NCBI RefSeq assembly: GCF_014201465.1
Contig: NZ_JACHEP010000001.1
Span: 42,833 to 106,832, forward strand
Length of the DNA stretch: 64,000 bases
Direction of reading: 5' to 3'
From: Anoxybacteroides tepidamans
Lineage (GTDB): Bacteria > Bacillota > Bacilli > Bacillales > Anoxybacillaceae
Positions within the stretch are counted from its first letter, which is position 1. Every line of letters begins with the position of its first letter. Below the pieces are notes generated by a model. That model worked only from the letters and a program-made list of their open reading frames with translations, was not told the origin of the DNA and did not search any database. Below are positions 22,937-25,922 of this stretch, one piece after another. The position numbers were made by a program, and so were the translations under genes.

Positions 22937-23575
22937 CTACTTATGAATGCGAACGGTGACGTTCATTCCTGGTACTAGTCCCGCTCCGTTATAGTCATCG
23001 ATCGAAATCGTAATTGGAATGACTTGTGTCACTTTTGTATAATTGCCCGTCGTATTGGAACTTGGCAGTAAGCTAAATGTATTGGCAGTAGCAAACCCCA
23101 GTTTCTCCACTTTCCCTGTAAATTTCCGGTCTGGATAGGCATCGACATAAATATCAACATCTTGTCCTGTTTTGATATCTTCCATTTTTGTTTCTTCGAT
23201 ATTAGCCGTTACCCATAAACGGGATAAATCATATCCCCGCGCTAACGGAACGGTTGGCGCAACGAGCGAGTTCGTGACAGCGCTTTGCTGAACGACCGTC
23301 ATATGATGTGGAACGGTGATCGGAAACGTATTCTTTCCGTCAGATACTGCACCGATTTGGTCACCGCTGTCAAATGTTTTTCCGATATCGCCAGACCAAC
23401 TGACTAACTTTCCTGCCACCGGCGCCACAATCGAAACTGCCTGCCCATCAATGCGAGCGTTGTCTGTCTTAATGTAATTCGTTGTTTCGTTGATGTAATA
23501 ATAAGCCGCAAATCCCCCTGCTACTAATAAAAGCAACACAATGATATTTAACGTAATTAAACGCTTCATGCTCAC
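22937..23575 (-). CDS. HlyD/EmrA-type membrane-fusion adaptor
   Basis: 212 residues: an N-terminal membrane anchor (residues ~5-27), a lipoyl/barrel-sandwich half-motif DNARIDGQAVSIVAPVAGKL, and a C-terminal beta-barrel with TKVTQVIPITISI and PGMNVTVRI. It lacks the long coiled-coil hairpin of EmrA from Gram-negative bacteria, as expected for a Gram-positive with no outer membrane. It partners the DHA2 exporter. GTG start with GGGGAGG nine bases upstream; an ATG two codons on is too far from it. Four-base gap after marR. Confidence 0.85.
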   Translation of the reverse strand: MSMKRLITLNIIVLLLLVAGGFAAYYYINETTNYIKTDNARIDGQAVSIVAPVAGKLVSWSGDIGKTFDSGDQIGAVSDGKNTFPITVPHHMTVVQQSAVTNSLVAPTVPLARGYDLSRLWVTANIEETKMEDIKTGQDVDIYVDAYPDRKFTGKVEKLGFATANTFSLLPSSNTTGNYTKVTQVIPITISIDDYNGAGLVPGMNVTVRIHK

Positions 23576-23579
23576 CGGT

Positions 23580-24020
23580 TTATTCCTCCCCTAATAAAAT
23601 CGTTTTTACTTTTTGTTGTAGCGATAGTAATGTTTCTATCTCCTCTTTTGTGAGCGTTGTCTCTACTTTTTGCAATCGTTGAATAAGGATCGATTCGTCA
23701 TTGAATGCTTCTTGTAATTTTTCTTTCCCTTTTTCTGCAAGCCGAAGCGTCACCGCGCGCCGATCTTCTTTTGACGTTTCCCGAACGACCAATCCGGCGC
23801 TTACAAGCCGATCCACTGTACCGCTGATCGTGCTGTTGCTCATGTTAAGTTTTTCCGCTAGATCATTTAATCGGATATTATCTTTTTTAGCTAACGTATA
23901 AAGGATGATGAGTTGCAATTCGGTAATCCCTGCCCTTGTTGCATCTTCGCGAATCAGCTTGTATAGCGCTTTTCGAATGCGAAAAATCGAGTACATAATT
24001 TCTCGCCCTAATTTTTCCAT
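23580..24020 (-). CDS. MarR-family repressor of the efflux operon
   Basis: 146 residues with the MarR winged helix: LNDLAEKLNMSNSTISGTVDRLVSAGLV, then the wing ETSKEDRRAVTLRLAEKG. AGGAGG precedes the ATG. It is first in the operon with the adaptor and exporter and likely represses it until a drug-like ligand binds. A 20-bp inverted repeat lies between the promoter and the gene. The region further upstream holds the structured RNA at 24114-24340. Confidence 0.9.
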   Translation of the reverse strand: MEKLGREIMYSIFRIRKALYKLIREDATRAGITELQLIILYTLAKKDNIRLNDLAEKLNMSNSTISGTVDRLVSAGLVVRETSKEDRRAVTLRLAEKGKEKLQEAFNDESILIQRLQKVETTLTKEEIETLLSLQQKVKTILLGEE

Positions 24021-24047
24021 ATACTCCCTCCTGTCATTCGAATTAAA

Positions 24048-24111
24048 ATAGTTTCAATGCGAACTATTTGTATACGAATTATGATTATATCATGTTAATA
24101 GGAAAAAGCAA
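24048..24111 (-). promoter_or_regulatory. marR promoter and operator
   Basis: On the minus strand TTGCTT (24111-24106), 16 bp, TATAAT. Downstream, ATAGTTCGCATTGAAACTAT (24067-24048) is an imperfect palindrome and probable MarR site. The promoter begins right after the T-run of the upstream RNA terminator. Confidence 0.65.
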
Positions 24112-24113
24112 CT

Positions 24114-24340
24114 AAAAAACCGATCTCTATGAGAGATCGGGTTTTTCATAAACGCCGCGATTTGCCGTTTGTTGAATGGAGTTTCTCAACCACACTTCAC
24201 TAGGTGGGTGTTCGCAGAAACGTTCTTGTCGTCCTCTTCACACGATTCATGGAGGCATGACATTCCCGTTTCGATGTAGAACTCCCTCTTTACAGCCATC
24301 GGTTGAAACTTCATTCGTTCACGTACAACGCAGCAGGTGA
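24114..24340 (-). ncRNA. Candidate structured RNA with own promoter and terminator
   Basis: A gene-free stretch with a strong promoter on the minus strand: TTGCCA (24374-24369), 17 bp, TATGAT (24351-24346), which predicts a start near 24340. The ~225-nt transcript ends in a perfect terminator (CGATCTCT-CAT-AGAGATCG plus six T, to ~24115). Inside, GAATGAAGTTTCAACC pairs with GGTTGAGAAACTCCATTC (small bulge) and, outside it, GCTGCG pairs with CGCGGC, closing the molecule. The interior can form at least three further hairpins: CGATG/CATCG, TGTC..GCCTC/GAGGA.GACA, and ACAC.CAC/GTG..GTGT. No reading frame fits. It could be a free small RNA or a leader (riboswitch) of the marR operon. I do not recognise it as 6S, tmRNA, RNase P, SRP RNA or a known riboswitch. 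Confidence 0.7.
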
Positions 24341-24383
24341 TTATTATCATACATAATCTTTTTCATTTTGGCAAGTCTGTCGA

Positions 24384-25922
24384 TTACACTGGATAAACCC
24401 CATGTTTTCGTTCAGAAAACGTCATATATTTCGACATGTATGCATCCAAACGGCGAATGAGTTCTTCGCGGAGCGAGTTCGGTGCAATAATGCCATCAAT
24501 CACCATTTCCGAAGCCAGACGGTAAATGTCGATGTCACGCCGGTATTCTTCGCGTTTTTGCTCGATAAAGGAAGCACGCTCTTCTTCCGGTAGCTCGGCA
24601 ATTTTGTTGGCATACACTGCGTTAACAGCCGCTTCCGGACCCATGACAGCAATTTGCGCATTGGGAAACGCTAAGCAACAGTCCGGTTCAAACGCCGGTC
24701 CTGCCATCGCATAAAGACCGGCCCCGTACGCTTTGCGGACGATGACCGAAATTTTCGGAACAGTTGCTTCCGACATCGCGGAAATCATTTTCGCACCGTG
24801 GCGGATAATGCCCGCCCGTTCGACTTTTGTGCCGATCATAAATCCCGGAATATCGGCTAAAAATAAAAGTGGGATATTGAACGCATCGCAAAGCGTAATA
24901 AATTTCGCCGCTTTATCCGCCGAGTCATGGAACAGCACACCGCCTTTCACACGCGGTTGATTGGCAATAATGCCGACCGGTTGACCGTTCAGGCGGGCAA
25001 GCCCTGTAATCAGTTCAGGCGCAAACAATTTTTTAATTTCGCAAAACGAATCTTCGTCAATCAAACGCTCAATTAAATCATACATGTTAAACGGAGCGTT
25101 TTGGTTGACCGGCAAAATGTCTTCAATCGATTTTTCGAACGTTTTCGGCGGTTTCGCTTCACTGATAGGCGGTTTTTCGCTAAAGTTTGCCGGAAAATAC
25201 GATAAATATTTACGCGCAAACTGAATCGCTTCTTCTTCCGTTTTGACAAGTACATCGCCGCAGCCCGATACCGTGCAGTGCATGCGCGCTCCGCCCATTT
25301 CTTCAAGCGTTACTTTTTCGCCAATGACCATTTCCGCCATCCGCGGTGATCCTAAATACATGGATGCATTCCCTTCAACCATGATGACGATGTCGCAAAA
25401 AGCGGGAATGTAGGCGCCGCCTGCTGCGGATGGTCCGAATAATAAGCAAATTTGCGGCACTTTTCCGGACAATTTTACTTGATTGTAAAAAATGCGCCCT
25501 GCCCCGCGGCGGCCCGGGAACATCTCAATTTGGTCCGTAATGCGGGCCCCCGCGGAGTCAACTAAATACAAAATCGGACAGCGAAGCTTTTCCGCTGTTT
25601 CTTGAACGCGAATAATTTTTTCAACGGTGCGCGCCCCCCACGACCCCGCTTTGACAGTTGAATCGTTGGCCATAACACATACCGTTTGTCCGTTGATTTT
25701 GCCAACCCCTGTGACGACGCCATCGGCTGGAAGGCCCTCGGCAAGACAGTTGGCAAACAATGCGTCTTCAAACTGCATGCCGTCATCAAATAATAGCTTC
25801 AAGCGGTCACGGACGAACAACTTCCCTTGTTCCGCATTTTTTCGATGGTATTTTTGTTCTCCGCCTTGTTCAATTTGCTTTGTTCGTTCCACTAATGTTT
25901 CTGTTAACGTTTTTCCGTTCAT
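24384..25922 (-). CDS. yngE: Acyl-CoA carboxylase carboxyltransferase subunit (3-methylcrotonyl-CoA type)
   Basis: 512 residues, two crotonase-like carboxyltransferase halves, with oxyanion-hole glycines in FGPSAAGGAYIPA and KAYGAGLYAM. It moves carboxyl groups from biotin on the carrier protein to an acyl-CoA. With HMG-CoA lyase, an enoyl-CoA hydratase and an acyl-CoA dehydrogenase in one operon, the substrate is probably 3-methylcrotonyl-CoA (leucine degradation); propionyl-CoA carboxylase is the alternative. It is last in the operon, in the order of B. subtilis yngJ-I-H-HB-G-F-E. Nine-base gap from yngF. The next promoter (for the RNA) starts ten bases after its stop. Confidence 0.88.
   Translation of the reverse strand: MNGKTLTETLVERTKQIEQGGEQKYHRKNAEQGKLFVRDRLKLLFDDGMQFEDALFANCLAEGLPADGVVTGVGKINGQTVCVMANDSTVKAGSWGARTVEKIIRVQETAEKLRCPILYLVDSAGARITDQIEMFPGRRGAGRIFYNQVKLSGKVPQICLLFGPSAAGGAYIPAFCDIVIMVEGNASMYLGSPRMAEMVIGEKVTLEEMGGARMHCTVSGCGDVLVKTEEEAIQFARKYLSYFPANFSEKPPISEAKPPKTFEKSIEDILPVNQNAPFNMYDLIERLIDEDSFCEIKKLFAPELITGLARLNGQPVGIIANQPRVKGGVLFHDSADKAAKFITLCDAFNIPLLFLADIPGFMIGTKVERAGIIRHGAKMISAMSEATVPKISVIVRKAYGAGLYAMAGPAFEPDCCLAFPNAQIAVMGPEAAVNAVYANKIAELPEEERASFIEQKREEYRRDIDIYRLASEMVIDGIIAPNSLREELIRRLDAYMSKYMTFSERKHGVYPV

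Follow-up and report, generated by a model that had tools for sequence, protein, structure and literature searches.

The window, by which we mean the whole analysed stretch of 64,000 nucleotides of Anoxybacteroides tepidamans DNA, raises the question of what is encoded in a short interval between the end of a yng operon and a marR-emrAB operon. An earlier note, made from the letters, had described there a structured RNA of ~225 nt with its own promoter and terminator, which could not be matched to an RNA class there and was read either as a free small RNA or as a terminator-controlled riboswitch for a drug-efflux operon.

The whole window was scanned against Rfam 15 at gathering thresholds, and RF00013 (6S RNA) was the sole match, found at 24339..24148 on the minus strand with 84.3 bits against a gathering threshold of 46.4 and an E-value of 3.6e-15. 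The alignment was full length, comprising model positions 1-187, and family membership is given by the covariance-model score over the full model. A strong Rfam match is the finding that the earlier note itself had named as speaking against novelty, and the proposal of an unrecognised RNA class is thereby refuted; the RNA is an ordinary 6S RNA of an already known family, and the gene is real. 6S RNA is a well-known bacterial RNA that restrains RNA polymerase as a promoter mimic, and Bacillus and its relatives often carry a second copy (6S-2). Judged from the sequence, the locus is almost certainly a minus-strand 6S RNA gene, namely that of the second paralogue (6S-2, bsrB type), lying between its own promoter and terminator. 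The features of the locus are the following:

24384..25922, minus strand: upstream neighbour, acyl-CoA carboxyltransferase-like gene (yngE-like), from the ORF list and family scoring
24346..24374, minus strand: promoter TTGCCA-17-TATGAT with 10/12 consensus matches
24116..24341, minus strand: predicted primary transcript of about 225 nt, start placed from the -10 box and end from the terminator T-run
24148..24339, minus strand: 6S RNA, most likely of the 6S-2 (bsrB) type, from RF00013 (84.3 bits, full length) and the trees
24154..24334, minus strand: outer closing stem, GCTGCGTTGT (24334..24325) with ACGGCAAATCGCGGC (24168..24154), from fold and covariation
24174..24316, minus strand: bubble-side helix, GAATGAAGTTTCAACC (24316..24301) with GGTTGAGAAACTCCATTC (24191..24174), from the fold (helices 3 and 4)
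24298..24311, minus strand: predicted pRNA template AAGUUUCAACCGAU, from alignment with other 6S-2 RNAs
24120..24140, minus strand: intrinsic terminator with a 9-pair stem, a 3-nt loop and TTTTTT (T6), from the scan
23580..24020, minus strand: downstream neighbour, MarR-like regulator, from the ORF list and family scoring

6S RNA was present in 41/41 genomes searched from the Geobacillus/Anoxybacillus family, and a second copy was found in 31 of these; the resulting 31 second copies, i.e., the window and 30 others fetched, were used for comparison with the window locus. No ORF of at least 60 aa overlapped 24114-24376, in agreement with the reported absence of a reading frame, and the near-consensus promoter and the intrinsic terminator were both recovered as described. 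In the window copy, TTGCCA lies at the 24374 end and TATGAT at the 24346 end of the promoter, with 17 nt between them. Scanning of the region revealed two promoter-like sites, with 1.5 expected by chance, and two terminator-like sites, with 0.8 expected. Promoter-like sites are, thus, about as frequent in the region as by chance, but the same layout recurs throughout the copies: with the top-scoring site taken within the 80 bases searched, TTGNNN-17-TATNAT was found 5-16 nt ahead of the RNA in 31/31 second copies, and a script detected a terminator hairpin free of interruptions, followed by a T-run, in 28/31 (window included in both counts). Based on the -10 box and the terminator T-run, the transcript is predicted to start at 24341 and to end at 24116.

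The yng and marR-emrAB neighbours named in the earlier note were also confirmed. The carboxyltransferase-like gene, which we call yngE-like in line with that note, ends at 24384, marR starts at 24020, and family scoring placed emrA- and emrB-like genes after marR. The EmrA-like protein (22937-23575) has a length of 212 aa only, and its best-scoring stretch aligns to the EmrA models in their C-terminal region; perhaps it is a shortened variant lacking the long hairpin.

The 226-nt strand folded at -68.1 kcal/mol (z = -2.57), with 2/200 shuffles being equally stable, which bears out a structured RNA of ~225 nt. Instead of the proposed branching into at least three interior hairpins, a long rod with internal loops was seen in both the covarying consensus and the minimum-energy fold, and in the latter the terminator formed a separate hairpin beside the rod. 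The long helix GAATG.AAGTTT.CAACC, previously assigned as closing the structure, is present, but it adjoins the central bubble instead of closing the RNA, and by alignment the pRNA template is located there. This bubble-side helix is taken, by analogy, as the counterpart of helix P2 (the downstream duplex) of B. subtilis 6S-1, which, according to a passage of PMC8876501, is disrupted on pRNA synthesis.

For analysis of covariation, 53 sequences were aligned, comprising all 31 second copies of the family plus 22 sequences from other families that fall into the clade described below, the loci L198 and L199 of this clade being left out. Pairing was observed in 97.5% of cells, and in 96-98% of cells of the outer closing stem (helices 1 and 2), while sliding of the partners lowered the overall value to 40.1-55.2%. 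Two-sided changes were found in 17/37 pairs as compared to a shuffled mean of 8.5, a number matched by 0/500 shuffles; in the bubble-side helix (helices 3 and 4), for which covariation among homologues had been suggested as a check, they affected 3/9 pairs. At columns 39-168 and 45-160, two-sided changes in 20 sequences each follow the split between the family and the others. Some of the largest two-sided changes follow this split and may, therefore, be single events, so that independent events are fewer than counted. Fifty-one alignment columns were invariant over the 53 sequences, GGGAGT and CACCCAC included. The RNA, thus, has the long rod of imperfect helices with compensatory pairs that characterises 6S RNA, with a central bubble that is mostly, in fact nearly, closed in the predicted free RNA.

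Two other explanations of the locus were weighed. The first is a riboswitch or leader acting in cis, which would respond to a drug and regulate the marR-emrAB operon through its terminator. It would fit the position of the RNA, which directly precedes marR on the minus strand, ends in a terminator and has the marR start at a distance of at most 500 nt in 25/31 copies (window included). Against it stands the strong full-length 6S match. The lasting linkage to the controlled operon that would be expected of a riboswitch is also not kept in 6/31 copies: marR is 1.1-3.3 kb away in three of them and outside the flank examined in the other three, and the RNA is kept in all six; RNAs of the same clade in other families adjoin other genes. 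Furthermore, marR is preceded by a promoter-like sequence of its own, TTGCTT-16-TATAAT (24111..24084), recognised by eye right after the terminator, where the earlier note had placed the marR promoter; it was missed by the promoter scan because of its weak first hexamer. Between this sequence and the marR start lies the perfect palindrome AATAGTTTCAATGCGAACTATT (24047-24068), which has the look of a MarR operator and perhaps is one; it was the only match to this sequence in the window at up to one mismatch, with 0.01 expected. Since the RNA has its own terminator and marR lies at a distance of over 1 kb, or outside the flank examined, in 6/31 copies, a riboswitch for emrAB is very improbable, and it was rejected on the 6S match, the synteny and the separate marR promoter-like sequence. 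On balance, the sequence speaks for an RNA that is independent of the efflux operon, and, of the two readings offered at the outset, it supports that of a free small RNA equipped with both a promoter and a terminator. A false lead is removed in this way, the locus being neither a new RNA class nor a new drug-efflux riboswitch.

It was also considered whether the window RNA is a decayed, non-functional 6S paralogue, given that its Rfam score is below that of the aspS-linked copy of the same genome (84.3 vs. 105.8) and that the second copy is missing in 10/41 family genomes. Decay is hard to reconcile with a promoter layout kept in 31/31 and an uninterrupted terminator found by script in 28/31 copies, with 51 invariant columns over 53 sequences, GGGAGT and CACCCAC among them, and with the pairing of 97.5% of cells; we give this explanation next to no weight and retain that of an intact 6S RNA gene.

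To which 6S paralogue the gene corresponds was approached from the genome itself. Exactly two 6S matches were found in the genome at E up to 10, one on contig C9 (105.8 bits) and one in the window (84.3 bits), by which a third or unusual 6S copy was rejected; a plasmid search in distant mode gave zero matches. The C9 copy has an AspS-like gene on one side and a TcdA-like gene on the other, and HisS- and RarA-like genes are found nearby (all named by visual inspection of the translations). In B. subtilis, the 6S-1 gene bsrA is flanked by aspS and yrvM, as stated in a section of PMC11077062, and the aspS-linked C9 copy is of the 6S-1 type. This 6S-1 (bsrA) and the window RNA share the Rfam family and the overall structure; however, the C9 copy differs by its aspS/tcdA context, by an identity of 48% to the window copy and by its place outside the clade to which the latter belongs. 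The identity of the window copy to L198 and L199 is 66-68%.

The wider comparison was based on 150 genomes drawn from the order, of which 148 carried 6S RNA above cut-off. The aspS/tcdA context, shared by most of the 6S-1 loci examined in the order, was found in most of the top-scoring loci, and second copies occupied many different genomic places. From these genomes, 38 were chosen for carrying at least two copies, so the tree is without the one-copy genomes of the order. The first tree contained 100 sequences, i.e., 51 stretches and 29 loci, together representing 80 of the 81 matches of the 38 genomes (L110, at a contig end, was left out), plus nine family 6S-1 and 11 of the 31 family 6S-2 sequences; for the second tree, four sequences were added (104). 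In the former, the family copies fell into a 33-tip clade with a support of 98.5/100, and in the latter into a 35-tip clade (SH-aLRT 98.7, bootstrap 100) made up of L198, L199, the 11 copies of the family that had been included and 22 copies from other families. Deeper in the tree, several nodes were under 70. The label 'asp' in the tree denotes aspS or tcdA in the flank examined, with tcdA alone in the case of L106, L109 and L111.

To relate this clade to B. subtilis, the BslA family served as a marker of Bacillus sensu stricto; of the 14 named genomes used as controls, B. subtilis alone had BslA, and 3/31 genomes tested were positive, all of one genus. The second 6S copy lies between RecQ-like and FMN-dependent NADH-azoreductase-like genes in two of these three genomes (L198, L199). 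In the third (L134), RecQ is adjacent, with no azoreductase among the ORFs listed. The azoreductase family was scored for L198 and RecQ (TIGR01389) for L134, not for L198 or L199; in L144, the neighbour is a DEAD-box helicase and not RecQ. The bsrB context was, thus, taken from the BslA-bearing genus, not from an identified B. subtilis sequence, and the argument from context rests on L134, L198 and L199. In B. subtilis, yocI is a recQ gene and yocJ an azoreductase gene, and the context of L198 and L199 is yocI-yocJ-like.

As the window copy clusters with sequences that have recQ/azoreductase neighbours, as B. subtilis 6S-2 does, and not with the aspS-linked 6S-1 sequences (35-tip clade, 98.7/100), it is most likely 6S-2. 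B. subtilis 6S-2, also known as bsrB and BS203, shares with the window RNA the Rfam family RF00013, the rod anatomy and the clade of the BslA-genus copies between recQ- and azoreductase-like genes. BS203 appears in a 2002 item in the reference list of PMC4211561. Unlike B. subtilis 6S-2, the window RNA is located between the yngE-like gene and marR, and the bsrB neighbours of B. subtilis are replaced by these two genes. Since the neighbours of second copies differ between families, shared neighbours do not define 6S-2.

Within the family, the yngE-like gene ends at most 150 nt upstream of the RNA in 27/31 second copies (window included). A pattern scan of named genomes yielded 13 stretches, six of which were from Geobacillus, two from Parageobacillus and five from Anoxybacillus. 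The ten one-copy genomes, G007-G015 and G040, belong to genus g2 (nine) and g9 (one) and are smaller (2.6-2.9 Mb); a second 6S copy was not found in any of them, a laxer search included. A yngE-like orthologue with 91% identity is present in 8/10 of these genomes, G010 and G013 giving only a distant or broken yngE match. The 1.5 kb flanks of the yngE-like gene in the eight genomes contained zero matches to MarR or EmrA and no profile match of note to a 6S-2 remnant, the best being an 18-base stretch in L207 with an E-value of 0.35, compared to 1e-54 for the window, which is itself in the profile. A degraded 6S-2 was, therefore, rejected for the 8/10 one-copy genomes with the orthologue. The window RNA gene, thus, belongs to a known RNA family, is well conserved and occupies a locus that is specific to the Geobacillus/Anoxybacillus family. 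Among the titles retrieved for 6S RNA in Geobacillus or Anoxybacillus, none was devoted to 6S-2 in this family; the locus offers a clear case of 6S-2 at a family-specific position, with 31 copies for a comparison of 6S-1 and 6S-2.

In one family genome, G003, a third 6S copy (L072:1160-1357) was found next to another HisS-AspS-like pair, on a separate contig. It is probably foreign, as the assembly is listed with 5% contamination.

From the aligned template, a pRNA reading 5'-AUCGGUUGAAACUU is predicted with a start nucleotide that is uncertain by 1-2 nt, so that the product would begin AUCGGUUGAAAC, give or take 1-2 bases. The template block AGUUU(U/C)AACC was found in 31/31 family copies and in 20/22 others. 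The bases following AACC separate the two groups: GA in 29/31 and GU in 2/31 family copies, i.e., AACCGA or AACCGU in the Geobacillus/Anoxybacillus family, as opposed to UU, i.e., AACCUU, in 20/22 of the copies from other families. The difference lies where the pRNA would begin, and it is conceivable, if rather unlikely, that the family 6S-2 is a functional variant whose closed-looking bubble might tune the release of RNA polymerase to high temperature.

The assignments of family, paralogue type, conserved anatomy, promoter, terminator and synteny were all drawn from sequence comparison. As to function, by the mechanism established with the 6S RNAs of B. subtilis, the rod with its open centre would mimic a melted promoter, bind sigma-A RNA polymerase and keep the enzyme away from promoters on DNA; given an ample supply of NTPs, the polymerase would copy a short pRNA from the central template, upon which the RNA would refold and the enzyme be released. 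Deletion of 6S-2 reportedly causes a biofilm derepression phenotype, to go by a title of Thuring et al. from 2021. For B. subtilis, 6S-1 and 6S-2 are described in sections of PMC11077062 as associating with sigma-A RNA polymerase in the exponential and stationary phase, 6S-1 more strongly than 6S-2, and as both being templates for pRNA; by analogy, the window RNA would likewise bind sigma-A RNA polymerase and support pRNA synthesis. The separate role of 6S-2 is called unclear in a passage of PMC7726162.

The tree also contains other groups, made up of additional copies whose template is of the GUCUUAAACC type. The 6S copies L136, L146, L147, L159 and L165, from four other families, have one common context: a transporter-like gene immediately precedes the RNA, a SodA-like gene lies 1.5-2.5 kb upstream of it, and a penicillin-binding-protein-like gene follows directly (assigned by eye). 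Three 6S copies were present in 5/38 multi-copy genomes, and there may be more than two types of 6S paralogue in the order.
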